Assembly (NCBI RefSeq): GCF_000468495.1
Contig: NC_022444.1
Coordinates: forward strand, 1,341,864-1,375,353
DNA: 33,490 nucleotides
Direction of reading: 5' to 3'
Source: Megalodesulfovibrio gigas DSM 1382 = ATCC 19364
GTDB lineage: Bacteria; Desulfobacterota; Desulfovibrionia; Desulfovibrionales; Desulfovibrionaceae
The notes under the pieces are model-generated. The model did not search any database, was not told the DNA's origin, and was given only the letters and a program-made list of their open reading frames with translations. A program made the position numbers and the translations under genes. Below, piece after piece: positions 3,172 through 23,507 of the stretch (positions are counted from its first letter, which is position 1; every line of letters begins with the position of its first letter).

Positions 3172-3178
3172 GGGGGGG

Positions 3179-7685: not shown

Positions 7686-9092
7686 TCAGCGCCGGACCTT
7701 GCCCGGGGTGGGCAGGCCGATCTGCTGCAGCCGGCGGTAGATGCTGGGCACGCTGAGGCCGGAAATCTGGCTGGCCCGGACCACATCCGGCCCGGTGATC
7801 TCCAGCAGCTGCTGAAAATACTGGCGATCCTGGGCCGCCTTGAATGCGTCATACGTGGACAATGGGGCCGGCAGGGCGGCTGGTGTTACGGGAGGGGACA
7901 GGACTGGGGCCGCCGCCTCAGCCTCGCCGATGGCGGACAGCCGCACATGCGGCGGCAGGTGTTTGGGATACAGCGCAGGATCCTGCCCGGCTTCGATGAC
8001 CGCTGCCTCCATGACATTGCCCAGCTCCCGGACGTTGCCGGGCCAGTCGTATCCACCCAGGGCCTGGAGCAGGTGCGGCGAGAGGAGTTTCTGCGGCAGC
8101 CGGTAACGCGAGCAGCTTTTGGCCGCGAAGTGCCGCGCCAGCAGCAGCAGATCGTCACCGCGCTCGCGCAGGGCCGGCAGGGTCACGTCCATGGTCCGCA
8201 GGCGGAAGAGCAGGTCGCCCCGGAAGGCGCCGGCCGCGGTCATGGCGTCCAGATCCCGGTTGGTGGCCGCCACCAGCCGAAAATCGCTGACCAGTTCCCG
8301 GGTGCCGCCCACGGGCCGGTAGCGACGTTCCTGCAGCACGCGCAGCAGGGACTTCTGCAGGGTCAGGGGCAGTTCGCCCACTTCATCCAGAAACAGCACC
8401 CCACCATGGGCCGCGGCCACCAGCCCGGCGTGGTCGGCATGCGCCCCGGTGAAGGAGCCGCGCATGTGCCCGTAGAGCTGGCTTTCCACCAGTTGTCTGG
8501 ACATGGTGGAGCAGTCCACCACCACAAACGGCCCGCCGGCCCGGGGGCTGTTGGCGTGCACGGCCTTGGCGGCCAGTTCCTTGCCCACGCCGGTTTCGCC
8601 GGTGATGAGCACATTGGCCTCGCTCTGGGCGGCCCGGGCCAGCAGGTGCTTGACGCGGCTCATGCTGGCCGACTCGCCAAGGATGCCACAGGCGTTGAAA
8701 GCCTGGGGCAGGGCGGCATCCTGGTGCCGGGAGGCGCGATAATGCAGGGCCCCGGCCAGGGAGGCCTTGACCTGGTGCGGCGAGGCCGGCTTGCGCAGGT
8801 AGTCCCAGGCGCCGCAGGCCAGGGCTTCCCGCGCGCCGTAGTTGTCGCCCAGGCCGGTGATGACGATGATTTCCGGCCGCGTGGCCGTGGCGGCCAGCTG
8901 ATCGATGGCGGCCTTGCCGTCGCCGTCGGGCAGGCCGAGATCCAGATAGATCACATCCGCCCCGGCCTCGGCCTGGGCCAGCCCCTCCTGCAGATTGGCG
9001 GCAAGCAGCGTCTCGTGACCGAGATCGGCAAAACAGCGGGCCAGGCTGCTGCGGATGAAGTCGTCGTCGTCGATGATCAGCACTCGGGCCAT
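7686..9092 (-). CDS. Sigma54-dependent response regulator (NtrC type)
   Basis: Transcription activator of 468 residues. Its receiver domain (about 3-115) has the acidic pocket DDDD near residue 8, phospho-acceptor D51 and K at KPAS. The AAA+ domain (about 140-375) has Walker A GETGVGKE and Walker B GGVLFLDEVGELP. The sigma54-contacting loop reads GSFTGA (212-217) instead of GAFTGA, a conservative change. A C-terminal Fis-type helix-turn-helix (about 425-465) contains ASQISGLSVPSIYRRLQQIGL. It lies 13 nt behind the hybrid kinase gene and has GAAGGA before its ATG. A candidate sigma54 promoter sits beyond the kinase, before the divergent metabolic cluster, so that cluster is the likely target. 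Confidence 0.94.
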   Translation of the reverse strand: MARVLIIDDDDFIRSSLARCFADLGHETLLAANLQEGLAQAEAGADVIYLDLGLPDGDGKAAIDQLAATATRPEIIVITGLGDNYGAREALACGAWDYLRKPASPHQVKASLAGALHYRASRHQDAALPQAFNACGILGESASMSRVKHLLARAAQSEANVLITGETGVGKELAAKAVHANSPRAGGPFVVVDCSTMSRQLVESQLYGHMRGSFTGAHADHAGLVAAAHGGVLFLDEVGELPLTLQKSLLRVLQERRYRPVGGTRELVSDFRLVAATNRDLDAMTAAGAFRGDLLFRLRTMDVTLPALRERGDDLLLLARHFAAKSCSRYRLPQKLLSPHLLQALGGYDWPGNVRELGNVMEAAVIEAGQDPALYPKHLPPHVRLSAIGEAEAAAPVLSPPVTPAALPAPLSTYDAFKAAQDRQYFQQLLEITGPDVVRASQISGLSVPSIYRRLQQIGLPTPGKVRR

Positions 9093-9105: not shown

Positions 9106-11103
9106 CTACCGGCAATGCCGGCGGACGCATTCCGCCAGGGTTCGCGGGGTCATGGGTTTCATGAGGAAATCCACCACCCCGGCGGCGATGGCCCGGCGCT
9201 CCAGGGCCGGTTCCACGTGGCCGGTGCACATGACGATTCTGGCCGAGGCGTCCAGGGCCAGCAGTCGGGACGCCATCTCCAGGCCGTCCATGTCCGGCAT
9301 GAAGTGGTCGGCCAGCACAAGGTTGAACCGGCCCCCGGCCTGGCGGAAGGCCTCCAGCCCCTCGGCGGCGCTGGCGGCGGCCGTCACCTGATAGCCGGCC
9401 TCCCGCAGCACCCGGTCCATGGCCTGGAGTGCGGCCTGATCGTCATCCACCAACAGCAGATGGCCGTGTTCCGGGCCGGCATGCCGCGGCGGCGGGGTCC
9501 GGGCGGGCAGGGGGGCTGGTCCGGGCGGTCCGGGCGGTCCGGGCGGTCCGGGGGACTCGGCCGGGCCGGCCTCGCAGCGGGGCAGGAGGATTTCAAAGAC
9601 CGTGCCCCGGCCCGGGACGCTGTTCACGGCGATGATGCCGCCGCAACTGGCCACGATGGAATGCACCACGGCCAGCCCCATGCCCGTGCCGCCGGCGCCT
9701 TTTTTGGTGGTGTAGAAGGGCTCGAAGATCCGTTCCAGCCGGTCCGGTTCAATGCCCTGGCCCGTGTCCGCCACGCGCAGGGCCGCGTACTCGCCCGGCG
9801 CAAGGCCGGGATGGGGCGCAGCCTGCCCGCTGCCGGCCGCCTGCCCCTGCCCCTGCCCCTGTCCTTGCCCCGGCATGCGGAAGCCGCGCAGCTGCACGCG
9901 CAGCAGCCCGCCATCGGGCATGGCCTGCACGGCGTTGCGGCACAGATTGTCCAGCAGCTGCTGCATCTGGCCGGCATTGGCCAGCACGCAATCCTGGCCG
10001 GCGGCGGCATCGACCTCGCAGCGCAGATCCAGGCGGACGTTGCGGGGCAGGGAGGCGCGGAACAGGGCCAGATGCTCCTGCAGCAGCGGCTCCAGGCGCA
10101 GCGGTTCGCGGCTGACATGCTGCCGGCGGCCGAATTCCAGCACCTGTTCCACCAGATCCGCGGCGCGGTAGGCGGCGCGCAGGGCCTCGGCCAGGGGGGC
10201 GCGGTCTGCCTCTCCGGCCAGCCGGCCCAGGACGTAATCCAGGTTGAAGATGATGGGCACGAGGTTGTTGTTCAGATCGTGGGCAATGCCCCCGGCCAGC
10301 ACGCCGATGGCCCGCATCTTCTGGGCCTGATACAGCTCCCGCTCCACGCGCTTGAGCTCGGTGACGTCGATGCCCAGCTCCATCACCAGGGGCTCGCCGT
10401 GTTCGTCCTCGAAGGGATAATCGTAGACGTGAAAGGTCCGGCCCTGGCGGTCCGTAAACTGCCAGCTCTCGGTCTTGCCGGTCTCGAACACGCGGAAGGT
10501 AGGGCAGACCGGACAGGGCGAGGTGCGGCCGCCAAAGACTTCATAGCACAGCCGGCCCTCGGTGGGGCCGTACAGGTCGCGGGTTTTGCGGTTGGCATAG
10601 GCCACGGTGTAGTCGCGGCGCTGCATGTAGACGAAGATGGGCACCTCGTCGATGACGTTGTAAAACAGCTCGCGGCCCCGCTCCTTGAGGCGCTCGGCCT
10701 CGCGGCGCACTTGGCGTTCGGTCAGCAGGGCCTTCTTGAGGCGCTCGGCGTCCGGCACCTCCCGAAATTCCACCACCGCCTGACCGCCACCGTCGCGGTC
10801 CGCCGGGATGCAGCGACAGCGGTACGGCTGCTGGCCGGCATCCAGGTACCAATCCGGACAGGGATCCCAGATGAAGGCCTGCTCCTGGCCGGTGCGGCGG
10901 GCACGGTTCAGCCCCTGGGCCAGGGAGGCGGCCAGGGAGGGCGGCAGGCCGAGATCGGCCAGGCCGCGGCCGGAGGCCTGATCGTCCCCGCCAAGGAATG
11001 TGGCGCAGAAGGCGGGGTTGGCATAGGTCAGGCGGCGCTTGGCGTCGAAGCTGGCCAGGGGGCTGGGGCATCCCTCGGCAAAGTGCGCGAAACTGCAGGG
11101 CAT
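9106..11103 (-). CDS. Hybrid PAS sensor histidine kinase with C-terminal receiver
   Basis: A 665-residue kinase with no membrane segment, so it is probably cytoplasmic. It has an N-terminal PAS-like domain (about 1-115), a charged helix, a second PAS (about 143-255) containing a C197-P-V-C200 motif, and a HisKA region with H275 in GIAHDLNNNL. An ATPase domain follows (NLCRNAVQAM N-box, DTGQGI G1 box, GTGMGLAVVHSI). A proline-glycine linker then leads to a receiver with D599 in LVLADHFMPDMDG. Two low-complexity stretches are odd: GQ repeats (about 412-421) inside the ATPase domain and GPP repeats (about 517-529) in the linker. The ATG at 11103 has GGAGG 5 nt upstream; an earlier in-frame TTG lacks this. 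Confidence 0.93.
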   Translation of the reverse strand: MPCSFAHFAEGCPSPLASFDAKRRLTYANPAFCATFLGGDDQASGRGLADLGLPPSLAASLAQGLNRARRTGQEQAFIWDPCPDWYLDAGQQPYRCRCIPADRDGGGQAVVEFREVPDAERLKKALLTERQVRREAERLKERGRELFYNVIDEVPIFVYMQRRDYTVAYANRKTRDLYGPTEGRLCYEVFGGRTSPCPVCPTFRVFETGKTESWQFTDRQGRTFHVYDYPFEDEHGEPLVMELGIDVTELKRVERELYQAQKMRAIGVLAGGIAHDLNNNLVPIIFNLDYVLGRLAGEADRAPLAEALRAAYRAADLVEQVLEFGRRQHVSREPLRLEPLLQEHLALFRASLPRNVRLDLRCEVDAAAGQDCVLANAGQMQQLLDNLCRNAVQAMPDGGLLRVQLRGFRMPGQGQGQGQGQAAGSGQAAPHPGLAPGEYAALRVADTGQGIEPDRLERIFEPFYTTKKGAGGTGMGLAVVHSIVASCGGIIAVNSVPGRGTVFEILLPRCEAGPAESPGPPGPPGPPGPAPLPARTPPPRHAGPEHGHLLLVDDDQAALQAMDRVLREAGYQVTAAASAAEGLEAFRQAGGRFNLVLADHFMPDMDGLEMASRLLALDASARIVMCTGHVEPALERRAIAAGVVDFLMKPMTPRTLAECVRRHCR
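9518..9553. repeat. Four tandem 9-bp units in the kinase linker
   Basis: GGTCCGGGC occurs four times in tandem (last unit ends in G). On the coding strand each unit encodes Gly-Pro-Pro, giving a collagen-like linker between ATPase and receiver domains. Unit length is a multiple of three, so slippage would alter linker length without a frameshift. Confidence 0.85.
9841..9870. repeat. Five tandem 6-bp units inside the kinase ATPase domain
   Basis: CTGCCC occurs three times, followed by CTGTCC and TTGCCC. The coding strand reads as Gly-Gln repeats between the N-box and the G1 box of the ATPase domain, where a surface loop is expected. In-frame length variation between strains is plausible. Confidence 0.85.
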
Positions 11104-11255
11104 GGGAGCCTCCGCGCGGCGGGTCGATTTATGCAATTCTGTCAATCAGTCGCGTCAGGCTATCGCGGAACGACCCAAAAGGCAAACGCGACCGCAGTCT
11201 GACAATCGCCTGAAATTGCACGGAACAAACGATCAATGCGCCTGCGGGCGCCAGA

Positions 11256-11381: not shown

Positions 11382-11397
11382 TGGCACGGCCCTTGAT
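11382..11397 (+). promoter_or_regulatory. Candidate sigma54 (-24/-12) promoter of the metabolic cluster
   Basis: TGGCACG, then 4 nt, then TTGAT matches the -24/-12 consensus (TGGCACG-N4-TTGCW) with exact spacing; the only core mismatch is A for C in the -12 GC. Predicted start is near 11408, about 69 nt before the ligase ATG. A sigma54-activator gene in the neighbouring divergent operon supports the assignment. Confidence 0.6.
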
Positions 11398-11476: not shown

Positions 11477-12859
11477 ATGACCATGTTCCAGCAACGCTCC
11501 AGTTCCCTCGACAGCATCAAGCAGACCATCCGCGAACACGACATCCATTTTGTCCGCTTCGAGCAGGCCGATCTGTACGGCGTCTCCCGCAGCAAGACCG
11601 TGCCCATCAACAGCTTCATGGATTACGTGGAAAACGGGCTGAACTTCTACGGCGGCCTGCTGGGGCTGGACATTCAGTCCATGGTGCCCAGCGGCACGGG
11701 CTATGCCGAGGAAGTGGCCTTTGCGGACCACTGCACCGTGCCGGATCTGTCCACGTTCACCGTGCTGCCCTGGGCCCCGCACACGGCGAACATCATTGTG
11801 GATCCCTACTGGTACGACGGCACGCCGGCCATGGCCTCCCCCCGGCTGCTGCTCAAGAAGCTCCTGCAGGCGTACGACGATCTCGGCTTCATCTGCCGCC
11901 TGGGCTACGAGTTTGAATTCTACGTGCTGCACAAGGACACCCGCCAGCCGGTCTACGGCGGGCAGCCCATCTTCGTGACGCTCAAGAACAACTTCGACAT
12001 GGACTTCACCTACGATCTGATGCGCAAGATGGAGCAGGCCGGCGTGCGCATCATCACCCAGAATTCCGAGCATGGCCCGGGCCAGCAGGAACTGAATCTC
12101 TATTACAAGGACGGCCTGCCCGCTGCGGACACGGCCATGCTCTTCAAGATGGGGGCCAAGGAAATCGCCCTGCAGCACGGCTACATGGCCACCTGGATGA
12201 CCAAGCCCTTCATCGATTCCAGCGGCTCGGGGTCCCACTTTCATGTGAGTCTCATCGACAAGCAGACCGGCAAGAATGTTTTTGATGATCCAGACGGCGC
12301 CTGCGGCCTGACGGATCTGGCCCGCAGGTTCCTGGCCGGCCTGCTCAAGCATGCCCGGGCCAACACCGTGTTCACCGCGCCCACCATCAACTGCTACAAG
12401 CGCTACCGCGTGAATTCCTTTGCCCCGCACAGCGCCACCTGGGGCATGGAGAACCGCACCGTGGGCATTCGCCTCAAGGGCTGCCGCGGCCAGAGCACGC
12501 ACTTTGAGAACCGGCTGGCGTGCGGCGGGTCCAACCCGTACCTGATGGCCGTGAGCACCCTGGCCGCCGGGCTGGAGGGGCTGCGGTCCAATCCGCCCCT
12601 GCCCGATCCCATCATGGACATCGCCTATACCAGAAACGACGTGCCCGTGCTGCCGCACAGTCTGGAAGAGGCCATCCGGGAATTCGAGCAGGATACGTCC
12701 CTGCACGAGGTGCTGGATCCGGAATTCGTCAAGCTGGTGCTGGCGGTGAAGAAGTTCGAGGTGCAGACGGCCAAGGCCCAGTTTGCGGATTACGGCACGC
12801 CGGCCTTCAACAACCGTGTGGATCCCTGGGAATGGGATTACTACATGGAACTGCTGTAG
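11477..12859 (+). CDS. Glutamine-synthetase-family ligase (probable gamma-glutamyl-amine/amide ligase)
   Basis: A 460-residue member of the glutamine synthetase superfamily, which activates the gamma-carboxyl of glutamate with ATP and joins it to ammonia or an amine. A beta-grasp N-terminal domain (ADLYGVSRSKTVPI) precedes the catalytic domain. GS signatures are visible: GYEFEFYV, HGPGQQELNL, GSHFHVS, ENRTVGIRLKG and ENRLACGGSNPYL. The motifs deviate from housekeeping GlnA, and the gene sits first in a transporter/catabolic cluster. That favours a GlnT/PuuA/GMAS-like role in which a substrate amine is glutamylated. The amine cannot be read from sequence. The C45-hydrolase gene follows after 12 nt. 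Confidence 0.85.
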   Translation: MTMFQQRSSSLDSIKQTIREHDIHFVRFEQADLYGVSRSKTVPINSFMDYVENGLNFYGGLLGLDIQSMVPSGTGYAEEVAFADHCTVPDLSTFTVLPWAPHTANIIVDPYWYDGTPAMASPRLLLKKLLQAYDDLGFICRLGYEFEFYVLHKDTRQPVYGGQPIFVTLKNNFDMDFTYDLMRKMEQAGVRIITQNSEHGPGQQELNLYYKDGLPAADTAMLFKMGAKEIALQHGYMATWMTKPFIDSSGSGSHFHVSLIDKQTGKNVFDDPDGACGLTDLARRFLAGLLKHARANTVFTAPTINCYKRYRVNSFAPHSATWGMENRTVGIRLKGCRGQSTHFENRLACGGSNPYLMAVSTLAAGLEGLRSNPPLPDPIMDIAYTRNDVPVLPHSLEEAIREFEQDTSLHEVLDPEFVKLVLAVKKFEVQTAKAQFADYGTPAFNNRVDPWEWDYYMELL

Positions 12860-12871
12860 GCGGGGGGCGAC

Positions 12872-14002
12872 ATGGAAGGCACCCTCCCCGCTGCTGCTCC
12901 TGTTTCCAGTTCCCCGCTGGTGGTGGACCTGGCCGGCACGCCCTATGAAATGGGCCTGACCCACGGCCAGGCCTGCCGCGAGCTGATCCGCGAATTCGCC
13001 GCCTCCGTGCTCCAGGTGCACCAGGCCAACAATCGCTTTCTGAAGGCCGAGCGCGAGGAGCTGACCGGCTTCTGCCTGCGCAATCTGGGGTTCCTGCAAA
13101 AGTGGTGTCCCGAGCTGGTGGAGGAGATGCGCGGCATCGCCGCCGGCGCAGGCCTGCCCTTCGAGGACATCCTGTACCTCAACTCCTTTTTGGAACTGGA
13201 GGATCTGCGCGCCCCCGGCCTGGGCGGCCGCACCATGCCCGATGCCCTGTGGGGCTGCACCACGTACAACGTGGCCCCTGCCGCCGCCGCCGGTGGGCAG
13301 GCATTGATCGGCCAGACCTACGACATGGAGCGCTACTACGAAAAGTTCGTGGTGCTGCTGCGCATCACGCCCCAAGACGGCCCGGCGCAGCTGGTGGTGA
13401 CCTTTGCCGGGGTGCTGGGCGTGAACGGCGTGAACGCCGCCGGGGTGGCCGCAGTCATCAACAAGGTGGTGGCCACGGACGCCCGGCCCGGGGTGATCTA
13501 CCCCTGCATCATGCGCCGGGCGCTGGCGTCCCGCCGCATCGGGGATGCCCTGGGCGCGGTGATCTTCTCCCCCCGGGCCACGGGCATGAACTATCAGCTG
13601 GCCGGCATGGGCGTGGCGTTCTGCGCCGAAGTCTCGGCCACGTCCTACGAGCTGTTGGAGTTCGACGGCGCCATCGCCCACACCAACCACTACCTGAGCC
13701 AGGCCATGCGCCGGTTCGAAACGCCCAACTGGCTCAGCCACGGCGGGTCCATGGTCCGTCGCCAGGTGGCCCAGGACTTCCTGGACCGCCACCGCGGGGA
13801 CATTACCCCGGCCCTGCTGGCGGAGCTGAGCCGCAATCACGTGAACCATCCGCGCTGCATCTGCGCGCATGGCTTTGACGGCGAGGCAGAAACCACAGCG
13901 TTCCACACCGTGTTTGCGGTGGTGATGGATCCGGCTGCCGGCTGGCTGGATCTGTGCGTGGGCAACCCCTGCCAGGGCGACTACCGCCGGCATCAACTCT
14001 GA
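12872..14002 (+). CDS. C45-family Ntn hydrolase / acyl-CoA:6-aminopenicillanate acyltransferase-like protein
   Basis: A 376-residue protein resembling the AAT/C45 family, whose members self-cleave before a cysteine and then hydrolyse or transfer amide-linked acyl groups. The candidate junction is G128-C129 in LWGCTTYNV, which would give chains of about 128 and 248 residues. GQTYDME and AHTNHYLSQAM fit family active-site segments. There is no signal peptide, so it should be cytoplasmic. It lies 12 nt after the GS-family ligase with a G-rich Shine-Dalgarno region. Together the pair could make and break an amide bond on an imported compound. A beta-lactam role is not implied. Confidence 0.82.
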   Translation: MEGTLPAAAPVSSSPLVVDLAGTPYEMGLTHGQACRELIREFAASVLQVHQANNRFLKAEREELTGFCLRNLGFLQKWCPELVEEMRGIAAGAGLPFEDILYLNSFLELEDLRAPGLGGRTMPDALWGCTTYNVAPAAAAGGQALIGQTYDMERYYEKFVVLLRITPQDGPAQLVVTFAGVLGVNGVNAAGVAAVINKVVATDARPGVIYPCIMRRALASRRIGDALGAVIFSPRATGMNYQLAGMGVAFCAEVSATSYELLEFDGAIAHTNHYLSQAMRRFETPNWLSHGGSMVRRQVAQDFLDRHRGDITPALLAELSRNHVNHPRCICAHGFDGEAETTAFHTVFAVVMDPAAGWLDLCVGNPCQGDYRRHQL

Positions 14003-14052
14003 AAATCCCCAGGTCCGCAACCGCTTCAACGCGATATTCCAAGAGGTGCAGC

Positions 14053-15621
14053 ATGCAGTCCAACCGAGCGAAGATTGATACCCTTTGTGCCGAGTACGAT
14101 GCCGGCGGCATGGATCGCCGCAGCTTTCTGAAGAAAATGGGCTTTTTGGGTGTGGCCGCCGTGGTGGCCAACGCTGTGAGCCTGTCTTCGTTGGGGGCCA
14201 CGCTGGCCTTTGCCCAGATCAGCGGGGCCGAGGAGCGCGCCTGGGAACTGGCCAAGGTGGCCGCGGCCAAGGCCACCAAAAAGACCCTGACCCTGCTCAT
14301 CCCCACGGGGTCCATCGGCAACATGACGCCTTACGTGGACAAGTGGAAGAACGAGCTGGGCATCACCCTGGAATTCATCGAGGAACCCGATGAGGTGGTG
14401 CACACCAAAGGCATGCAGGAAGCCGTGGCCAAGACCGGCCGCTACGACGTGATGATGCCCACGGCCATGTCCTATCCGGACTGGATCGATTCCGGCGTCA
14501 TCTACGACCTCACCGAATGGACTGAAAAATACCAGCCCGACCTGTTCCACAAGGAATGGGGCGTGGTGTTTCCGGCCAGCCATCATGCCCAGCTCTACAA
14601 CGGGCGCGTGGCCGGCCTGCTCAACGACGGCGACCAGATCACCCTGCTGTGCCGCGACGACTACCTGAAGAATCCCGAGAAGCAGAAGGCCTTTGCCGAC
14701 AAGTACGGCTACCCCCTGGCCGTGCCCTCCACCTGGGCCGAGTATTACAATCTGGCCGAGTTCATGCACGATCCGGCCAACAAGTTCTACGGCAGCCTGG
14801 AGTACCGCTCGCCGTACTACGTCAAATGGATGTTCATGCAGCGCCTCGTCTCCAAGGGCCGGCTGTACTTTGACGGCGACATGAACCCCACCTTCAATTC
14901 CGAAGAAGGGGTGGCTGCGCTGGAAGACATGCTCAAGATGAACCAGTACCTCCACCCGGACGCCTTCAGCTTCACCTGGTCCTCCAACTACAACGCCTTC
15001 GGCCGCGGCGAAGGCTTCATGAACATCGTCTGGCCCTCGGGCTTCAAGTACTCCAAGGCGCCTTCCACCGGGCCGGCCACCACGGGCAAGATTGCCGCCA
15101 CGGTCATGCCGGCGGACACCCTCAAGGACGGCACCAAGCTCTATGCCGGCCTGTTCTGCTGGGGCTACGGCTACGCCGTGTCCAGGTACTCGGCCAACCC
15201 CGAACTGGCCTATGCCTACGCCCAGTGGATGACCTCCCCCACCATCGGCGCGGACGCCATCCCCTACCTGGGCGGCTACTCCGATCCCTACCGCATCAAC
15301 CACATGCTCAAGCCCACCCAGCGCCTCATCGACACGTATTCCCCCGAATACCTGCAGACGCTGTACGACAACATGGTCAACACCGTGCCGGATTTCTGCA
15401 TCCCCGGCGGCTTCGAGTATCAGGACGCCCTGGACAAGCAGGTGCACGCCTGCATGACCGGCGACAAGAAGCCCAAGGAAGCCCTGGACGACGCCGCCAA
15501 GGCCTTTGAGCGCATCACCCGCCGCATCGGCAAGGACAAGGTCAAGAAGTCCTGGCTGGCCCTGGCCAAGAACCTGGCCGAGCCCATCCGCAAGGCCAGC
15601 GGCGCGGACAAGTGGAGCTAG
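14053..15621 (+). CDS. Tat-exported ABC transporter solute-binding protein
   Basis: A 522-residue periplasmic solute-binding protein, longer than most sugar-type binding proteins (about 400-450) and closer to the large GlpV-like group. The twin-arginine motif DRRSFLKK (R22-R23) follows a 19-residue hydrophilic extension, then a hydrophobic core ending TLAFAQ, so export should be by Tat in folded form. The mature part starts TLTLLIPTGSIGNMTPYVDKW, a typical extracellular binding-protein opening. GAGG lies about 6 nt before the ATG at 14053; M20 is an alternative start. Two permeases and two ATPases follow. The ligand is unknown; glycerol, polyol and amino-alcohol transport are possibilities from gene layout only. 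Confidence 0.87.
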   Translation: MQSNRAKIDTLCAEYDAGGMDRRSFLKKMGFLGVAAVVANAVSLSSLGATLAFAQISGAEERAWELAKVAAAKATKKTLTLLIPTGSIGNMTPYVDKWKNELGITLEFIEEPDEVVHTKGMQEAVAKTGRYDVMMPTAMSYPDWIDSGVIYDLTEWTEKYQPDLFHKEWGVVFPASHHAQLYNGRVAGLLNDGDQITLLCRDDYLKNPEKQKAFADKYGYPLAVPSTWAEYYNLAEFMHDPANKFYGSLEYRSPYYVKWMFMQRLVSKGRLYFDGDMNPTFNSEEGVAALEDMLKMNQYLHPDAFSFTWSSNYNAFGRGEGFMNIVWPSGFKYSKAPSTGPATTGKIAATVMPADTLKDGTKLYAGLFCWGYGYAVSRYSANPELAYAYAQWMTSPTIGADAIPYLGGYSDPYRINHMLKPTQRLIDTYSPEYLQTLYDNMVNTVPDFCIPGGFEYQDALDKQVHACMTGDKKPKEALDDAAKAFERITRRIGKDKVKKSWLALAKNLAEPIRKASGADKWS

Positions 15622-15666
15622 AGCAACAAGATCCTTGCGAGAGGGGAAACCTTTTGATTTTCCAAG

Positions 15667-15693
15667 AGGGGAGACGCGCTCTCCCCTTCCAAA
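15667..15693 (+). repeat. Intercistronic hairpin plus partial copy of the terminal repeat
   Basis: AGGGGAGA (15667-15674) pairs with TCTCCCCT (15680-15687) across a 5-nt loop. The 19-mer CGCGCTCTCCCCTTCCAAA (15675-15693) is identical to positions 3-21 of the left terminal repeat. It lies between the binding-protein and permease genes, where such stems commonly stabilise upstream mRNA or cause partial termination, giving more binding protein than membrane components. Confidence 0.65.
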
Positions 15694-15759
15694 ACGGTGA
15701 TGGTGGGTACACGATGCGGCCTAACCGGGCGGCATCGCAGCAAAGGGCAGGAGTTGAAC

Positions 15760-16698
15760 GTGGCTGAGAACACAATGCAAGCAACGGCCTCCGGCAGACC
15801 GCCCGGCGGTCTGAGCCGGGGCGCGGTGGTCAGGCTGCTCACCCTGCCGGGGACGCTCGTTTCCCTGGTGGTGCTGGTGACGCCGCTGCTGGTGGCCCTG
15901 TACATGAGCTTTACGGACTGGTCCCCCACCCGCAGCTCCTTTTTCGACGCCAGCTTTGTGGGCTTCGACAACTACAGCGAACTGACCATCTACGACACGC
16001 GCTTTCTGTACGCCGTATTGCGCACGCTGTGCATTGCCGCGGTGTGTCTGGGGCTGGAATTCGTCATCGGGCTGGGGCTGGCCGTGCTCTTTTTGCGGGA
16101 GTTCCGGGGCAAGTCCCTGCTGTTTTCGGCATTTCTTTCGCCCATGATGATCCTGCCCGTGGTGGTGGGATACACCTTCTGGATGCTCTTTCAGTCCAAC
16201 GGGCCCATCAATCAGATCGTTGAGCTGTGCTTCGGGCCGGGATCGAGTCCGGAGTGGTTCCGCAGCGCGCCCCTGGCCGTGTTGGCGGTCGTTATCACTG
16301 AAGTCTGGCACTGGACGCCGTTGTTTTTCCTCATCCTGCTTTCGGGATTGAACGCCGTGCCCGAAAACCCGGTGCGGGCGGCGGTCATCCTGGGGGCCTC
16401 GCCGCGGCAGGTGTTCTGGCGGGTGGTCATGCCCATGCTCAAGCCGGTCATCGTGGTGGCCTTCGTCATCCGGACCATGGAAATCATCAAGCTGTTCGAC
16501 GAGGTGTACATGCTTACCCGCGGCGGGCCCGGCTCGGCCACGGAAACCATCAGCCTGTACATCTACAAGCTGGCGTTCAACGACTTCCAGTTGGCGTACG
16601 GCGCGGCGGCGGCCTTTCTGGTGCTGCTGGGCTGCCTGCTGCTCATCCATCTGCTGCTTTCTCCGGTGCGGGACCAGCTGCTGAAAGGGGGACGCTGA
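15760..16698 (+). CDS. ABC transporter permease (sugar type, MalF-like)
   Basis: A 312-residue inner-membrane permease with about six membrane segments. The cytoplasmic coupling loop reads NPVRAAVILGASPRQVFWRVVMPML, a variant EAA motif (RAA) that docks on the ATPases. I chose the GTG at 15760 because AGGAG lies 6 nt upstream; earlier in-frame ATGs lack a ribosome site and run into the hairpin region. The stop overlaps the next start by 1 nt (TGATG), so the two permeases should be co-translated. Confidence 0.9.
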   Translation: MAENTMQATASGRPPGGLSRGAVVRLLTLPGTLVSLVVLVTPLLVALYMSFTDWSPTRSSFFDASFVGFDNYSELTIYDTRFLYAVLRTLCIAAVCLGLEFVIGLGLAVLFLREFRGKSLLFSAFLSPMMILPVVVGYTFWMLFQSNGPINQIVELCFGPGSSPEWFRSAPLAVLAVVITEVWHWTPLFFLILLSGLNAVPENPVRAAVILGASPRQVFWRVVMPMLKPVIVVAFVIRTMEIIKLFDEVYMLTRGGPGSATETISLYIYKLAFNDFQLAYGAAAAFLVLLGCLLLIHLLLSPVRDQLLKGGR

Positions 16699-17558
16699 TG
16701 CACGCCAAGAAACTTTCCCCGCTGCTGGCCGTAGTCATGGGCCTGGCCCTGGCCGTGACGTTGTTTCCGGTGTTCTGGATCGTGATGACGGCCGTCAAGC
16801 CGCCCATCGACTGGAACGCCTCCCCGGCCATCTGGATTCCTTCGGACCCCACGCACATCAACTTCATGACCCTGTTCGATCCCGACGCCATCCGGGCCTA
16901 TGGCGTGGGCGGGGTCAGCCAGTCGGCCACCAAGGCGGTGTGGGGCTCGGTGCGGGCGTCCATCATCGCCACGGCTCTGTCGGTGGGCATCGGGCTGTTC
17001 TCGGCCATCGGCATCACCCGCTACGGCAACGGCAGCAAGCTTGCGCCGCTGATCATCCTTTCGGGCCGCATGTTTCCGCCGGCGGCCATCGCCGTGCCGT
17101 TTGTGATCATCTTTTCCAACGTGGGACTGATAGACAGCTACGCCGGCCTCATCGCCATCTACACCGCCGCCACGCTGCCGTTTTCCACCTGGATGCTCAA
17201 AAGTTTCGTGGAGGACCTGCCCCGGGAGGTGGAGGAGGCCGCCATGATCGACGGCCGTTCCCGGCTCATGGCCCATCTGACGGTGACGATTCCCCTTATC
17301 CGCGGCGGCATCTTTGCCACCACGCTGTTCATCTTCATCCTGAACTGGTCGGAATTCATGTTCTCCCTGGTGCTGTCGTATACCAACATCAGCACCATTC
17401 CGGTGCAGTTGGCGCGCTATGTCACGGCCACGGCCGGCACGCTGTACGGCGTGCAGGCGGCCCTGGCCGTGCTGGCCATGGTGCCGCTGATGCTCATGGG
17501 CTACCTCATCCAGTCCCATCTGGCCCGGGGCATGACCTTTGGAGCGATCAAGCAATGA
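16698..17558 (+). CDS. ABC transporter permease (sugar type, MalG-like)
   Basis: A 286-residue second permease of the importer. It opens with a membrane helix (LLAVVMGLALAVTLFPVFWIVM) and carries a standard EAA coupling loop, EVEEAAMIDGRSRLMAHLTVTIPL. With the preceding permease it would form the heterodimeric channel. Its stop overlaps the first ATPase start as ATGA, a tight translational coupling. Confidence 0.92.
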   Translation: MHAKKLSPLLAVVMGLALAVTLFPVFWIVMTAVKPPIDWNASPAIWIPSDPTHINFMTLFDPDAIRAYGVGGVSQSATKAVWGSVRASIIATALSVGIGLFSAIGITRYGNGSKLAPLIILSGRMFPPAAIAVPFVIIFSNVGLIDSYAGLIAIYTAATLPFSTWMLKSFVEDLPREVEEAAMIDGRSRLMAHLTVTIPLIRGGIFATTLFIFILNWSEFMFSLVLSYTNISTIPVQLARYVTATAGTLYGVQAALAVLAMVPLMLMGYLIQSHLARGMTFGAIKQ

Positions 17559-18649
17559 ACAAGCCCAAACTGGAACTGGTGGCCCTGCGCAAGGACTACG
17601 CCGACGGCTCCGTGCCCGCGGTGGACGGCATCGACCTCGCCGTGCAGCCCGGCGAAACCCTGGCGCTGCTGGGGCCCTCCGGCTGCGGCAAGTCCACCAC
17701 CCTGAACATGATTGTGGGGCTGGAGTCTCCCACCTCGGGCGACATCCAGATAGACGGCCGCTCCATCCTCGGGGTGCCGGCCGGCCGGCGCAACGTGGGC
17801 ATGGTCTTTCAGGATTATGCGGTGTTCACCTCCATGACCGTGCGCAAGAACCTGGCCTTTGGGCTGGAGATCCGCAAGATGCCCAAGGCCGAGATTAACC
17901 GCGCCGTGCACGAGGTGGCCGAGCTGCTGGGCATGGCCGACCGTCTGGACGCCCGCGCCCGGGATCTGGGCGGCTCGGAGCTGCAGCGCGTGGCCATCGG
18001 CCGCACCCTGGCCACCCGGCCGGCCTTGCTGCTGCTGGACGAGCCCCTCTCCAATCTGGAATACGCCGCCCGCCTGGCCATGCGCCGCGAACTGCGCCGG
18101 CTGCAGCAGGAAATCGGTCTGACCATCATTTATGTGACGCACGATCAGATCGAAGCCCTGTCCCTGGCAGACCGCATCGCCGTGATGCGCGCGGGCAAGA
18201 TTCTGCAAGTGGAGAAGACCACCACCATGTACGACACGCCGGACCACGTGTTCGTGGCCAGCTTTCTGGGCTCGCCGCCCATGAACCTGCTGCGGGGCAA
18301 CCTGGAGGCCCACGGCCAGGGCATGCTGTTCAGGATCGGCCAGTTCCGCCTGCAATTGCCGCCGCCCAGGCCGGGCGTGGCCATGCCGCGGGGGGTGACG
18401 CTGGGGGTGCGGCCGGAATCCCTGCGGCTGGCGCCGGCCGAGACGGCGCCCATCACCGGGCAGGTGCTCCTGGCCGAGCCGCGCGGGCCGGAAGTGGTGC
18501 TCACCGTGGAGTCGGCCGCGGTGCAGCTCAAGGCCGTGGCGCCGTCGCAGAGCCATCCCAGGGAAGGGGCCATGGTGGGATTGGAGTTTGATCCTGCCTC
18601 CCTGGTCTTCTTCAGCAACGACACCAGCCACCGCATGGAGCTGTGTTGA
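17555..18649 (+). CDS. ABC transporter ATPase 1 (degenerate signature motif)
   Basis: A 364-residue MalK/GlpS-like ATPase with an N-terminal nucleotide-binding domain and C-terminal regulatory (TOBE/MOP-like) domain. Walker A is GPSGCGKST (40-48), the Q-loop Gln is Q86, Walker B ends D162-E163 and the switch His is H196; all are present. The signature, normally LSGGQ, is LGGSE (138-142), losing the serine and altering the glycines, and the D-loop reads SNLE rather than SNLD. GGAG lies upstream of the ATG at 17555, which overlaps the permease stop. Its own Walker site would be completed by the intact signature of ATPase 2. Confidence 0.93.
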   Translation: MNKPKLELVALRKDYADGSVPAVDGIDLAVQPGETLALLGPSGCGKSTTLNMIVGLESPTSGDIQIDGRSILGVPAGRRNVGMVFQDYAVFTSMTVRKNLAFGLEIRKMPKAEINRAVHEVAELLGMADRLDARARDLGGSELQRVAIGRTLATRPALLLLDEPLSNLEYAARLAMRRELRRLQQEIGLTIIYVTHDQIEALSLADRIAVMRAGKILQVEKTTTMYDTPDHVFVASFLGSPPMNLLRGNLEAHGQGMLFRIGQFRLQLPPPRPGVAMPRGVTLGVRPESLRLAPAETAPITGQVLLAEPRGPEVVLTVESAAVQLKAVAPSQSHPREGAMVGLEFDPASLVFFSNDTSHRMELC

Positions 18650-18650
18650 C

Positions 18651-19793
18651 ATGACCACCGCATTCGCCACAACTACTGCGCCGGTGCTGGCGCTGGAGCA
18701 GGTGCACAAGCGTTTTCGCGCCACCCAGGCCCTGCACGACGTCACCCTGACCGTGCCCGAGGCGTCCTTCACCGTGTTGCTGGGGCCGGCCGGGGCCGGC
18801 AAGACCACCACCTTGCGCGTCATTGCCGGGCTCGATCAGCCAGACGCCGGCCGCGTGCTGCTGGCCGGGCAGGACATGCGCGGCTGGGAGCCCAAGGATC
18901 GCAACGTCGCCATGATCTTTGACAATCTGGCGCTGTATCCCAACAAGACCGGCTTCCAGAACTTGGCCAGCCCCCTGCGCATCCGCGGCGAGAAGTCCGA
19001 GGCGATTCGGGAAAAGGTCGAGGCTATGGCCAAGACGCTGAAAGTGCTGCATATCCTGGACCGTCTGCCCAGGACCATGAGCGGCGGGGAGCGTCAGCGC
19101 ATTGCCCTGGGCCGGGCGCTCATCCGCACGCCGCGGCTTTTTCTGCTGGACGAACCCCTGTCCAGCCTGGACGCCATGCTGCGCATCGAACTGCGGGCCG
19201 AGCTCAAGCGCCTGCAGCGCGAATGCGGTGCGACCTTCCTCATGGCCACGCCGGACTATACCGAAGCCCTGGCCATTGCGGATACCGTGGCCCTGCTGCG
19301 GGAGGGCCGGGTGGTGCAGCTGGCCGGGCCGCAGACGCTGTATGACCTGCCCGCGGACCGCGAAGTTGCCCGCTTTGTGGGCGCGCCGCAGATCAACTGC
19401 CTGCCGGCCCGGTATGTGCCGGGGCAGGGCAGGGTGGAGGCGGCCGGCGGCAGCATCCGTGCGCCGCGGGCCTTTGTGGAGGCCTTCGGCGAGGCGGAGA
19501 CGGCCTTTGAATTGGGCCTGCGGCCCGAGCATCTGGCCCCGGCCGATCCCGACCGCGCTGCCCTGCGGGCCGAAGTGATTGATGTGGAGCCCCTGGGCCT
19601 CAAGTCCGTGCTCACGGTGCGCAACGAGGATGCCGAGCTGCGCGTGGTGGTGGAGACGGCGACGCTGCCGCGTCTGGGCCTTGCCGTGGGCGCATCCCTG
19701 GGCGTGACGGTGACCAATCCTGACGCGTTGCTGGCCTTCGACCTGCAATCCGGCCGACGCATCGCACCGGTCCAAGCGATGGCGGCACCATAG
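18651..19793 (+). CDS. ABC transporter ATPase 2 (degenerate Q-loop and switch)
   Basis: A 380-residue MalK/GlpT-like ATPase. Walker A is GPAGAGKTT (45-53), the signature MSGGE (143-147) is near canonical, and Walker B D167-E168 is intact. The Q-loop glutamine is replaced by D91 (MIFDNLALYP), and the switch histidine by P201 (MATPDYTEA in place of VTHDQTEA). A regulatory domain follows (LRPEHLAPAD). GGAG precedes the ATG. The defects complement those of ATPase 1, so an asymmetric heterodimer with one complete and one degenerate ATP site is likely. The paired-ATPase layout recalls GlpS/GlpT glycerol importers. Confidence 0.92.
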   Translation: MTTAFATTTAPVLALEQVHKRFRATQALHDVTLTVPEASFTVLLGPAGAGKTTTLRVIAGLDQPDAGRVLLAGQDMRGWEPKDRNVAMIFDNLALYPNKTGFQNLASPLRIRGEKSEAIREKVEAMAKTLKVLHILDRLPRTMSGGERQRIALGRALIRTPRLFLLDEPLSSLDAMLRIELRAELKRLQRECGATFLMATPDYTEALAIADTVALLREGRVVQLAGPQTLYDLPADREVARFVGAPQINCLPARYVPGQGRVEAAGGSIRAPRAFVEAFGEAETAFELGLRPEHLAPADPDRAALRAEVIDVEPLGLKSVLTVRNEDAELRVVVETATLPRLGLAVGASLGVTVTNPDALLAFDLQSGRRIAPVQAMAAP

Positions 19794-19803
19794 GCGCGGG
19801 CGC

Positions 19804-20760
19804 ATGATCAATCTCTTTGTCACCTACCGCTGCAACCTGGCCTGCCCGTACTGTTTTGCCCGGCCCCTGGCAGCCCGTCATCCGGGGGACATCACGCCGG
19901 AGCGTTTCGCCGCCTTTCTGGACTGGGCCAGCCGCGCCGCCGTGCCGGCTGTGGCCTTTCTGGGCGGCGAGCCGACGCTGCATCCGCATCTGGCGGCCAT
20001 GATCCAGGCCACGGCCGAGGCCGGCATGGCCGCGGTGCTCTTCAGCAATGGCCTGTTCTCCCGGGAGCTGGTCCGCCGCCTGGCTCCGCAGGTGTCGAAT
20101 TTCGTCATCAACTACAACAACCCCGAGTGCTACGCCCGCGGTCAGCAGGAGATGCTGCACGGCACGCTGTCCACCCTGCGGGAGCTGGGGGCGCGGATCA
20201 CCTTTTCCAAGAACTTTTCGCCGCAGTTGTCGGCATGGGACTATCTGATGGACGCCATCGAGCGCTACGGCGTCAGCGCCGTGCGGTACGACATCTCCCG
20301 CCCTGCAGCCGATGCCGCCAACGATTTCTGCCGTCCCGAAGACGCCCGCCGGATGCTGGGCCGGGTGGTGGACTTTGTGCGGGCCTGCGAGGCCAGGGGC
20401 GTGCGCACGGGGCTGGACTGCAGCATCCGTCTGTGCGATCTGGACACCGCAGACCGGCGCTACCTGGAGCAGGTGTCCATGAAGTTTCGGGGCATTTGCC
20501 ATCCGTCCATGGACGTGCATCCCGATCTTTCCGCCTCCTATTGCCTGCCCATGCATGACGTGCAGGTGCCGGACGTGACCGCCTTTGCCGATGCCGCTGC
20601 CCTGATGCGCCACTTCGCCCAGACCGTGCGGCCCCTGCGCACCGGGCATGCCCCGGCTGGCTGCGCTGAATGCGAGGAATACCTGCGCCGCTGCCAGGGC
20701 GGGTGTCTGGCCCTGCTGCGTGCGCAGGCGCCGGCTGTTCACAAGGAGTATTTGCCATGA
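19804..20760 (+). CDS. Radical SAM enzyme with SPASM-type auxiliary cluster domain
   Basis: A 318-residue cytoplasmic enzyme. The SAM-binding [4Fe-4S] motif CNLACPYC supplies C10, C14 and C17, and FLGGEPTLHP follows as the SAM-contact GGEP. The C-terminus carries C232-x14-C247 and C287-x2-C290-x6-C297-x3-C301, a SPASM-like spacing expected to hold auxiliary Fe-S clusters. Relatives mature peptides or proteins or oxidise small molecules. No candidate precursor peptide is nearby, so maturation of the adjacent Mo/W enzyme or direct catabolic action are the alternatives. The ribosome site is weak. Its stop overlaps the next start as ATGA, which argues for a functional link to the molybdoenzyme. 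Confidence 0.9.
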   Translation: MINLFVTYRCNLACPYCFARPLAARHPGDITPERFAAFLDWASRAAVPAVAFLGGEPTLHPHLAAMIQATAEAGMAAVLFSNGLFSRELVRRLAPQVSNFVINYNNPECYARGQQEMLHGTLSTLRELGARITFSKNFSPQLSAWDYLMDAIERYGVSAVRYDISRPAADAANDFCRPEDARRMLGRVVDFVRACEARGVRTGLDCSIRLCDLDTADRRYLEQVSMKFRGICHPSMDVHPDLSASYCLPMHDVQVPDVTAFADAAALMRHFAQTVRPLRTGHAPAGCAECEEYLRRCQGGCLALLRAQAPAVHKEYLP

Positions 20761-23507
20761 GCGTCCGCACCGTTGTCACCACATGCACCCGGGACTGTCC
20801 CAACACCTGCGGCCTGCTGGCCACGGTGGAGGGCGACCGGCTCACCCGTCTGGCCGGCGATCCTGCCCACCCGTTCATCAAGGGCAAGGTCTGCCGCAAG
20901 GCCATGCGCTACATCGAGCGCGTCTACAGCCCGGAGCGGATCACCCGGCCCATGCTGCGCCGCGGGGACCAATGGGAAATCGTCTCCTGGGATACGGCCC
21001 TGGATCTGATTGCCGGGCGCATGCACCGCATCCGGGACGAGTCCGGCCCCGAAGCCATCCTGTATTACCAGGGCTTCGGCGAGCGCACTGCGCTGAAGTT
21101 GCTGAACAAGTATTTTTTCAACCTGTTCGGTGGCGTCACCACCATGCACGGCACCCTGTGCGGCGGCACGGGGCAGGCGTCCCAGAATCTGGACTATGGC
21201 GAGCGGGTGTCCCATGATCCGCTGGACCACCTCCACAGCGCCTCCATGGTCCTCTGGGCCCGCAACCCCGTGACCACCAACATCAGCCTGGCGCCCATCG
21301 CCCGCGACGTTGCCCGTCGTGGCGGCCGGGTGCTGCTGGTGGATCCCGCCCCCACCAAGTCCGCGAGTCTGGCCAGCCGGCACATTGCCCCCCGGCCCGG
21401 CGGCGATGCCTTCCTGGCCCTGGCCGCGGCCCGGCTGATCCTGGATGCAGGGGCCGAGGACCGCGCCTTCCTGGAGCAGCATGCCGAGGGGCTGGACGGC
21501 TATCTGCGTCTGGTGCACCGCTGGGACGTGGCCGAGTTGTGCCGCTTGGCCGGCGTGCCCGTGGCCGACGCCGAGCACCTGGCCGAGACGCTGATGACCC
21601 AAAAACCCACGTCCATCCTGCTGGGCTGGGGCTTGCACCGTCACGTGCAGGCGCATCTGACCATCCGGGCCATCGATGCCCTGGGCGCGGTGAGCGGGAA
21701 CATTGGCGTGGCCGGCGGCGGCGTGAGCCAGGGCTTTGAGGAGTATGGCCCCTACGATCAGCACTACTGGGGCGATTCCCTGCGCCCGCCGCGGCGTACC
21801 CTGCTCATGCCCCGGGTGGGCGAGGAGATTCTGGCGGCCACCGATCCGCCCATCCGCATGATTTACGTCACCGCGGCCAACCCCGTGTGCACCGCGCCAC
21901 GCTCGGACAAGGTGGCCCAGGCCTTCCGTCAGGCGGAATTCGTGGTCTATTCCGGCCATTTTCTGGACGATACCGCCGCCCTGGCCCATGTGTTCCTGCC
22001 GGCCACCACCTTTCTGGAAGAAGAGGATGTGGTCGCCAGCTACGGCCACAACTATGTTGGTCCCATCACGCCGGCCATCGCGCCCGTGGGGCAGTGCAAG
22101 TCCGAGTTCCGCATGTTTTACGAGCTGGCCGCGCGGTTCGACTTTGCCGACCAGTTCCGCAAGCCCGAGGCCGAGTGGCTGGAGCGCATCTGCGCCCCCA
22201 TCCGTCAACAGGGCTGTTCCCTGGAGCAGCTGCGGCAGGGCGCGTTCCGGCTGGATGCGCCGATGGTCCCCTTTGCGGACCGCACCTTCCCCACGCCGTC
22301 GGGCCGGTTCAGACTGGTGGGAGATCTTGCGGAGATGGAGGCCATGGCCGACGCGCTGGGTGCGGCGGATCCTGCCCGTCCCTTCCGTCTGTTGACCATC
22401 GCCCCGCATCGCTTCATCTGTTCGGAACGGACCATGGCCGAACACGAGCCGCTGCCTGAGGTCCAGTGCAACGCTGCCGTGGCGGCGTCCCTGGGATTGG
22501 AAGACGGCGACGCCGTGCGCCTGCACAGCGCCGAGGGCCAGGCCGCGGCCCGGCTGCGCACCCGGGAGGATCTCCGGCCGGATATCCTGGTGGCCGAGCG
22601 TGGCGGCTGGACCCGGGCCGGGCACGATCTGAACCGGCTGATCAAGGACGTGGCCAGCCGAGTGGGAAACGGCACGCCGTACTACGAAGCCACCGTGGGG
22701 CTGGAGCCGCTGCCGTCGTCCTGCTCCGGGAGCCCTCAGGCCTCGCCGTGCAGGCCGCCGCAGGTGCTGGTGATCCAGCACGGGCTGCATTCCCTGGGCG
22801 GCAATTTCCTGAAGCATCTGGAACAGCAGGGCTGCCGTCTCCACACGGTGCGCGCCTTCGAGGGCGAGGCCCTGCCGCACACCCCGCAGGACTACGCCGC
22901 CCTGGTGGTCATGGGCGGGCCGCAACACGCCTGGGACGACGAGGCCTGGCCGCACATTCCACCCTTGCTGCGGCTCATGCGGGAATTTGATGCCCTGGGC
23001 CGGCCCGTGGCCGGGGTGTGTCTGGGGGCCCAGCTCCTGGCCCGGGCCTGGGGCGGGGAGTGCTTCGCCATGGAGGCCCTGGAGTTCGGCTTTGTGCAGC
23101 ATGCCGTCACCGAGGCCGGGCAGGTCGATCCCGTGCTGGGGCCGGCGCTGCCCCTGCCGCGGCTCATGGAGTTTCATCAGGACTCCTTCCGCCTGCCGCC
23201 GGAAGCCACGCTGCTGGTGCGGGGCGAGGCCTGCGAGGCCCAGTGCTTCCGCGTGGGCCGGGTCTCCTACGGCTTCCAGTTCCATCTGGAGGTGGACGCC
23301 GCCACCGTGGCCCACTGGACAAGGCTGCTGCGCGAGGGCGCGGTGGAGACGTATCGTCAGTACCGCGAGCAGCATGACGAGGCCTGTTTCGAGACCCTTG
23401 CCGCCGAACTGCCCGTGCTGGCCGATCGTGGCGAGCGCTTCTGCCGGGAGATCGTCGCCCGTTGGCTGGCCCAGACCCAGACCCAGACCCAGGTCCAGGC
23501 CCATTGA
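20757..23507 (+). CDS. Molybdopterin (bis-PGD) oxidoreductase fused to class I glutamine-amidotransferase domain
   Basis: A 916-residue cytoplasmic fusion. Residues 1 to about 660 form a DMSO-reductase-family enzyme: C10, C14, C18 and C46 (Cx3Cx3Cx27C) bind a [4Fe-4S] cluster, and C135 in GTLCGGTG is the probable Mo/W ligand. The usual cofactor-binding segments follow (FLPATTFLEEEDVVAS, PTPSGRFRL). There is no Tat signal. Residues about 669-916 form a GMP-synthase-like amidotransferase or gamma-glutamyl-peptidase domain with C755 in GVCLGAQ and H843/E845 in FQFHLEVD. The linker is continuous with no stop or frameshift. AAGGAG precedes the ATG at 20757. The reaction is unknown. Confidence 0.9.
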   Translation: MSVRTVVTTCTRDCPNTCGLLATVEGDRLTRLAGDPAHPFIKGKVCRKAMRYIERVYSPERITRPMLRRGDQWEIVSWDTALDLIAGRMHRIRDESGPEAILYYQGFGERTALKLLNKYFFNLFGGVTTMHGTLCGGTGQASQNLDYGERVSHDPLDHLHSASMVLWARNPVTTNISLAPIARDVARRGGRVLLVDPAPTKSASLASRHIAPRPGGDAFLALAAARLILDAGAEDRAFLEQHAEGLDGYLRLVHRWDVAELCRLAGVPVADAEHLAETLMTQKPTSILLGWGLHRHVQAHLTIRAIDALGAVSGNIGVAGGGVSQGFEEYGPYDQHYWGDSLRPPRRTLLMPRVGEEILAATDPPIRMIYVTAANPVCTAPRSDKVAQAFRQAEFVVYSGHFLDDTAALAHVFLPATTFLEEEDVVASYGHNYVGPITPAIAPVGQCKSEFRMFYELAARFDFADQFRKPEAEWLERICAPIRQQGCSLEQLRQGAFRLDAPMVPFADRTFPTPSGRFRLVGDLAEMEAMADALGAADPARPFRLLTIAPHRFICSERTMAEHEPLPEVQCNAAVAASLGLEDGDAVRLHSAEGQAAARLRTREDLRPDILVAERGGWTRAGHDLNRLIKDVASRVGNGTPYYEATVGLEPLPSSCSGSPQASPCRPPQVLVIQHGLHSLGGNFLKHLEQQGCRLHTVRAFEGEALPHTPQDYAALVVMGGPQHAWDDEAWPHIPPLLRLMREFDALGRPVAGVCLGAQLLARAWGGECFAMEALEFGFVQHAVTEAGQVDPVLGPALPLPRLMEFHQDSFRLPPEATLLVRGEACEAQCFRVGRVSYGFQFHLEVDAATVAHWTRLLREGAVETYRQYREQHDEACFETLAAELPVLADRGERFCREIVARWLAQTQTQTQVQAH
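23472..23501. repeat. Tandem 6-bp repeat at the 3' end of the fusion gene
   Basis: CAGACC occurs three times, followed by CAGGTC and CAGGCC, encoding a QTQTQTQVQA tail immediately before the stop. It is probably a disordered tail generated by slippage. Confidence 0.85.

Follow-up and report, generated by a model that had tools for sequence, protein, structure and literature searches.

A molybdopterin oxidoreductase fused to a class I glutamine amidotransferase ends a conserved operon with a predicted gamma-glutamyl-amine ligase in Megalodesulfovibrio gigas

Introduction

Why would a molybdopterin oxidoreductase carry a glutamine amidotransferase (GATase) at its C-terminal end? The question is raised by a gene at positions 20757-23507 of a 33,490-nt stretch of the Megalodesulfovibrio gigas DSM 1382 genome (contig NC_022444.1, positions 1,341,864 to 1,375,353; hereafter "the window"). 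An initial annotation, made from the letters alone, saw here one frame joining an enzyme of the dimethyl sulfoxide (DMSO) reductase family to a GATase domain, and guessed that the latter either supplies ammonia to the product of the molybdenum (Mo) enzyme or removes a gamma-glutamyl group from that product. We find that the fusion is real and conserved, and that the operon which it terminates is of more interest than the architecture itself. With a probability of about one in two, the fused protein would be the last enzyme of an oxygen-independent pathway in which an imported amine is processed through gamma-glutamylated intermediates.

Results

The frame translates without interruption into 916 residues. 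Its Pfam matches, all above curated cut-offs, are Molybdop_Fe4S4 (residues 4-58), Molybdopterin (61-459) and Molydop_binding (561-642), that is, the three Mo-family domains in the order of the DMSO reductase family, followed by GATase (PF00117, 682-848). Alignment bore out every residue named in the initial annotation: Cys10, Cys14, Cys18 and Cys46 for the Fe4S4 cluster, Cys135 as metal ligand, and the Cys755-His843-Glu845 triad of a class I GATase. The oxyanion GG and the glutamine-site motifs are also present. Since no twin-arginine translocation (Tat) signal is evident, the Mo or tungsten (W) module is probably cytoplasmic. The protein falls short of the narrower families. None of the NCBIfam matches listed (25 of 34) attains its cut-off; the nearest to the Mo part is Fdh-alpha (TIGR01591), at 197 bits against a cut-off of 666.25, and the nearest to the GATase part is PRK07053, at 123 bits against 250. 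The C-terminal part gives PF00117 only, with no Pfam match to the PuuD-type Peptidase_C26, and is 17% identical to the TC1 protein matched by NCBIfam PRK11366. AlphaFold, run on P0001 and one 546-aa relative, returned a mean predicted local distance difference test score of 33, too low for the model to be of use.

A sequencing error hiding a stop in the linker had been named as one way in which the fusion could prove illusory. This is excluded, as the stretch 22660-22800 reads through without a stop. Relatives of the fused protein, counted at E <= 1e-100, occur in 68 of the 297 genomes of a class sample and extend through the GATase in 37 of these 68 (including G244 and G296, whose fused gene shows as pieces within one locus; G001 was left unscored, its contig ending inside the gene). 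The junction lies at the same place in the 36 fused rows of our alignment, with a short linker that is, in most of the 35 fused homologues from other genomes, 8 residues shorter than in the window. Given this recurrence and this constancy of the junction, the fusion is not an artefact of frameshift, sequencing or assembly. That threshold yields relatives in 12 of the 395 genomes of a phylum sample, and the fused ones are confined to four genomes of the window's own family, all of them also in the class set.

The alignment comprises 58 rows, 36 fused and 22 lacking the GATase; the latter are 5 distant outgroup rows, G001, 8 older unfused relatives (47-54% identity) and 8 members of the fused lineage. 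The Fe4S4 cysteines and Cys135 are kept in all 58 rows, GATase-less ones included, and the full triad in 33 of the 36 fused rows. In a first tree, with long branches included, the fused rows were not clearly separated from the older unfused relatives. Once the long rows L050 and L123 were removed, the fused lineage (45 rows) formed one side with a support of 75, which favours, without proving, a single fusion followed by several losses of the GATase. Genome G166 (loci L140 and L084) has, besides the fused copy in its operon, an unfused copy of the older type (54%), a coexistence that suggests acquisition of the operon. The row L050 (L050:6184-12256, C2) is a Mo-enzyme paralogue from the same genome as the window, 32% identical and directly preceding a UbiD decarboxylase gene and a 213-aa gene that may encode UbiX; a separate aromatic pathway is possible there.

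The fused gene ends a run of same-strand genes (11477-23507; Table 1) for a glutamine synthetase (GS)-like ligase, a C45/AAT hydrolase, an ATP-binding cassette (ABC) transporter made of a binding protein, two permeases and two ATPases, and a radical S-adenosylmethionine (SAM) protein. Its ATG overlaps the stop of the radical SAM gene by 4 bases, which suggests that the two are translationally coupled. The order of the operon is kept over many genera and, wherever the operon occurs, the fused gene comes last. Of the 297 class genomes, 23 have the binding protein, and every one of these also has a relative of the fused protein; the fusion itself is present in 22, the exception being G001, cut by its contig end. 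Identity to the window in operon-bearing loci is 72-95% for the ligase, 77-96% for the binding protein, 55-89% for the Mo part and 41-61% for the GATase.

Table 1. Genes, modules and probable promoter of the operon and its divergent regulators (window coordinates)
Feature	Position	Strand	Basis or remark
GS-like ligase, GoaS kind (predicted gamma-glutamyl-amine ligase)	11477..12859	+	Pfam, best solved match 8wwu, alignment
C45/AAT autoproteolytic acyltransferase or amide hydrolase (predicted)	12872..14002	+	sequence search
ABC solute-binding protein (SBP_bac_1)	14110..15621	+	start proposed from Tat-like MDRRSFLKK (14110-14136); frame open from 13954
ABC permease 1 (CUT1-like)	15697..16698	+	sequence search
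ABC permease 2	16698..17558	+	sequence search
ABC ATPase 1 (UgpC/MalK-like)	17555..18649	+	proposed start; frame open from 16940; missed by both gene callers used
ABC ATPase 2 (UgpC/MalK-like)	18651..19793	+	proposed start; frame open from 18588
Radical SAM protein	19804..20760	+	overlaps start of fused gene; adjoins it in operon-bearing genomes
DMSO-reductase-family module (Mo/W-bis-pyranopterin guanine dinucleotide type), residues 1-650	20757..22706	+	Pfam; ligands in 58/58 aligned rows
Linker and class I GATase domain (Pfam 682-848; Cys755/His843/Glu845)	22707..23507	+	Pfam, alignment
Probable sigma-54 (-24/-12) promoter, TGGCAC-N5-TTGA	11382..11396	+	95 bases upstream of ligase gene
Hybrid histidine kinase (PAS, HATPase, receiver), divergent	9106..11145	-	sequence search
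NtrC-type sigma-54 response regulator, divergent	7686..9092	-	sequence search

The first gene of the operon gives the best clue to its chemistry. The ligase has a Gln-synt_C match of 278 bits, and the catalytic core motifs of type I GS align, as expected of the GoaS class, in which the GS fold is combined with such a core. Its best solved match is 8wwu, taken here, from the occurrence of that code in PMC11335346, as NpaA1, the protein that typifies the proposed GoaS class. In the accessible part of that article, most GoaS are described as having an extra N-terminal motif, and NpaA1 as having the flap Glu and the Asp50' of true GS replaced (PMC11335346). When the window ligase is compared with GlnA, which the genome encodes separately, FDGSS is changed to FYGG plus an insert and GYEAP to NSFAP; an extra N-terminal motif thus replaces the GS ammonium loop and the flap Glu is gone. 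Because of this insert, the absence of the flap Glu and the match to NpaA1, the protein is most likely a gamma-glutamyl-amine ligase, and we consider it quite likely that it makes gamma-glutamyl amides.

The fate of the GATase domain was then set against the presence of the operon in the 44 rows that remain when the outgroup, the older unfused relatives and G001 are left out. Genome G296 was scored as operon-bearing from its neighbours, its binding protein being unseen at 1e-100, and so were G188 and G235, though their operon genes sit on another contig; the tree omits G244, whose locus was inspected. Every one of the 22 rows with the operon has an intact triad. In the 22 rows without it, the triad is intact in 11 and broken in 3 (G011, G168 and G099), and the whole domain is gone from 8. 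This tie has a Fisher p of 1.8e-4, uncorrected for descent; in independent pairs drawn from the tree, it runs in the expected direction about 4 times out of 5 and never in the opposite one. The ratio of GATase to Mo-part divergence has a median of about 2.0 in operon-less fused genes (n = 14) versus about 1.4 in operon-bearing ones (n = 22; Mann-Whitney p of 3e-5, again uncorrected for descent). In G200, the fused gene is still directly preceded by a remnant of the radical SAM gene, matching the last half of its product, as would be left by a deletion of the other operon genes. Since the triad tracks the operon while the metal ligands are intact in every row, we read the GATase as retained for the chemistry of the operon, and the Mo part as probably having an independent life. 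The 22 genomes with and the 22 without the operon provide a ready comparison for what maintains the GATase domain. In three genomes, operon-less Mo genes adjoin two-component genes (L041:5889-8311 in G011, L104:5738-7854 in G168 and L115:10567-12838 in G117).

Related GATases also occur on their own in aerobes, near GoaS-type genes and with no Mo enzyme of this kind annotated nearby. Thirteen neighbourhoods of GATase matches were viewed, one of them (H5) without annotation. Among the 12 annotated plasmid neighbourhoods, 7 show a GS-family gene within view (H6, H7, H9, H11, H14, H18 and H25), whereas H1, H3, H12, H15 and H22 do not; four of the seven (H6, H11, H14 and H25) were chosen since a GS search had retrieved the record as well, the count being 3 of 8 for those picked by rank. 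The most telling case is a plasmid of Rhizobium sp. ACO-34A, where genes for an AS-family amidase, a GoaS-type ligase of the GS family (42%) and a standalone GATase form one run with those for the permeases, the ATPases and a binding protein that is 79% identical; the 22 kb inspected contain no annotated Mo enzyme. Such identity of the binding protein to that of the sulfate-reducer-type operon makes it probable that the importer module moved between unlike hosts by horizontal transfer. The Rhizobium module (L126:6951-18069), which also neighbours genes for a 2Fe-2S ferredoxin and serine hydroxymethyltransferase, could reveal the substrate of the operon; the amidase, the ferredoxin and the hydroxymethyltransferase point to no single compound. 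In Alisedimentitalea, a transporter with a 42% identical binding protein was found, with no ligase, GATase or Mo gene in view. Direct descent of the fused domain from a Rhizobium-type GATase is unsupported by identity: over the whole domain the Rhizobium protein is 29% identical to it, versus 38% for one from Azospirillum. The Rhizobium module therefore backs a function, not a line of descent.

A comparable gene set occurs outside the fused lineage. In G513, from another family of the same phylum, genes for the ligase (55%), the C45 protein (53%), the radical SAM protein (39%) and an unfused Mo enzyme (49%) form one same-strand run, and the transporter genes are on another contig. The radical SAM and Mo genes are separated there by two adjoining GTPase genes, of which at least one is dynamin-like, with a DLP helical domain (L148:11911-15745). 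Unfused relatives do exist (the 8 older ones, the 8 losses and G513). The initial annotation would have taken consistently separate genes with no functional link as a refutation; the linked operon argues for such a link.

As to regulation, a TGGCAC-N5-TTGA match in the window alone is expected by chance. A like element, however, lies 86-106 bases upstream in 17 of the 21 operon loci checked, and the four loci without it (L108, L110, L137 and L139) show no close copy of the divergent regulators either; the operon is probably sigma-54-driven. A terminator scan 3' of the fused gene found none. The TamA/TamB-like outer-membrane genes located downstream are probably unrelated to the operon, as they have no match in the seven stretches checked around fused genes elsewhere (L039-L044 and L057). 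A HAMP and SpoIIE-type phosphatase protein encoded at 1060-3501 bears no relation to it.

Discussion

Judged by composition only, the operon has what a gamma-glutamylation pathway for amines comprises, namely a ligase, an oxidative enzyme and a gamma-glutamyl hydrolase encoded together. In the pathway that we propose, the Glp/CUT1-like ABC system would import an organic substrate, from which the C45 hydrolase may release an amine by opening an amide. The GoaS-like ligase would couple L-glutamate to the amine at the expense of ATP. The Mo/W domain would carry out a redox reaction or a hydroxylation on the gamma-glutamyl amide, in place of the Ipu P450 or the Atd Rieske dioxygenase, and the Cys-His-Glu site of the fused GATase, beside it, would hydrolyse the amide to product and glutamate. 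We infer the substrate, each of these reactions, their order and what the radical SAM protein does from sequence.

Not every step commands the same confidence. That the GATase hydrolyses a gamma-glutamyl amide is probable, more so than the scheme as a whole; action of the Mo domain on a glutamylated intermediate is put forward tentatively. Equally tentative is the broader notion that a bifunctional Mo/W enzyme and gamma-glutamyl hydrolase might let strict anaerobes oxidise gamma-glutamylated amines without oxygen, the metal centre replacing P450, Rieske or flavin oxidases. Several observations weigh against the scheme. The triad-operon tie is not significant in independent tree pairs (median p of 0.125), and 11 operon-less genomes retain an intact triad. 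No electron partner was recognised for the Mo domain. The Azospirillum GATase, the nearer to the fused domain, has no GS-family gene in view. In G513, a GATase is neither fused nor near, the best match in the genome scoring 21 bits; such a domain would thus not be obligatory for the set of ligase, C45, radical SAM and Mo genes, in which C45 could deglutamylate. It is probable that the GATase joined the set later or can be replaced in G513, perhaps by C45. Finally, in the accessible text on the aniline systems, conversion does not require NpaA2, and AtdA2 is considered to work on the amide that has not been oxidised (PMC11335346).

This last point leads to the most serious alternative, in which the GATase is a safety valve that turns surplus gamma-glutamyl amine back into amine and glutamate, as the same source proposes for AtdA2 and NpaA2 (PMC11335346), the fusion merely holding it near its substrate. 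The G513 gene set would fit such an arrangement. Yet the triad is never broken in operon-bearing rows, and a covalent tie to the presumed oxidising enzyme better fits action on the product of that enzyme, so that we regard the safety valve as unlikely. G513 would also suit a C45 hydrolase acting as the deglutamylase, with the Mo enzyme working on something else and the GATase an accessory. This is improbable: Rhizobium sp. ACO-34A combines its GATase and GoaS-type ligase with an unrelated amidase, as if the two hydrolases had separate jobs.

A class I GATase that is fused to another enzyme usually supplies it with ammonia, and the triad, oxyanion GG and glutamine-site motifs of the domain would be suited to drawing ammonia from glutamine for the product of the Mo enzyme. 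However, no amidating, ATP-using or ATP-binding module is among the Pfam matches of the fused chain, like GATases lie near GoaS-type ligases where such a Mo enzyme is unannotated, and the eight genomes of the fused lineage that dropped the GATase retain all metal ligands. Together with the ligase that opens the operon, the triad-operon tie and the standalone GATases beside GoaS-type genes, this favours the second guess of the initial annotation, gamma-glutamyl removal, over the first, which appears very improbable. Just as hard to sustain is an operon-independent task of the Mo domain as a general reductase or dehydrogenase, with an incidental fusion: the domain does persist alone (8 losses, 8 older relatives), in some cases beside annotated genes unrelated to the operon, but the operon always ends in the fused gene and even the unfused Mo gene of G513 shares a run with ligase, C45 and radical SAM genes.

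If the proposed pathway is correct, it would assign a role to a branch of the DMSO reductase family that is an orphan at present, and would direct attention to an amine imported by sulfate reducers and their relatives. Our literature search, which missed most subscription papers, found no description of the operon or of an anaerobic gamma-glutamylation pathway based on a molybdoenzyme; the accessible part of a D. vulgaris transposon-fitness study has nothing on the operon (PMC10102598). The fusion is another matter. The initial view that no characterised enzyme has this architecture overstated its novelty, as a DMSO reductase plus GuaA1 fusion, the same kind of domain architecture, stands in Table 4 of a 2018 survey, an entry that names no organism, operon or function and is all that we have seen of it (PMC6147048). 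The proposed pathway would supply that entry with a function as well.

How does the operon compare with known systems? By its cysteine ligand and Fe4S4 domain, the Mo part resembles the branch of formate dehydrogenase and acetylene hydratase, and its nearest solved relatives are formate dehydrogenases; it differs in lying far under the Fdh-alpha cut-off and in its C-terminal GATase. The Puu pathway (PuuA to PuuD) glutamylates, oxidises and deglutamylates, as proposed for the window operon, but does so with a flavin oxidase and an aldehyde dehydrogenase, and PuuD is of the Peptidase_C26 kind. PuuA is itself named as a GoaS in the text available (PMC11335346). The Atd and Npa systems for aniline and naphthylamine (AtdA1, AtdA2 and AtdA3-5) share with the window a GoaS ligase and a GATase-like hydrolase of gamma-glutamyl amides, AtdA2 hydrolysing gamma-glutamylanilide (PMC11335346); they differ in using a Rieske dioxygenase, in a GATase-like protein that reverses the ligase, and in keeping the genes separate. 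In the Ipu system, as far as the accessible text describes it, isopropylamine receives a glutamyl group from IpuC and the amide is converted by a P450 into gamma-glutamyl-alaninol, from which alaninol would be set free by a postulated amidotransferase step (PMC6776027). Here too, a GoaS ligase, an oxidising enzyme and a class I GATase-like hydrolase (amidotransferase/IpuF) are found in one cluster, whereas the P450 depends on oxygen, the hydrolase is separate and the transporter is of another kind. The gamma-glutamylation pathways in the literature at hand all use an oxygen-dependent oxidative step. The window operon resembles the Ipu and aniline systems in that the same three roles recur, with a Mo/W-type enzyme, fused to the hydrolase, in the oxidising position; if the proposal holds, it would be their anaerobic Mo or W version.

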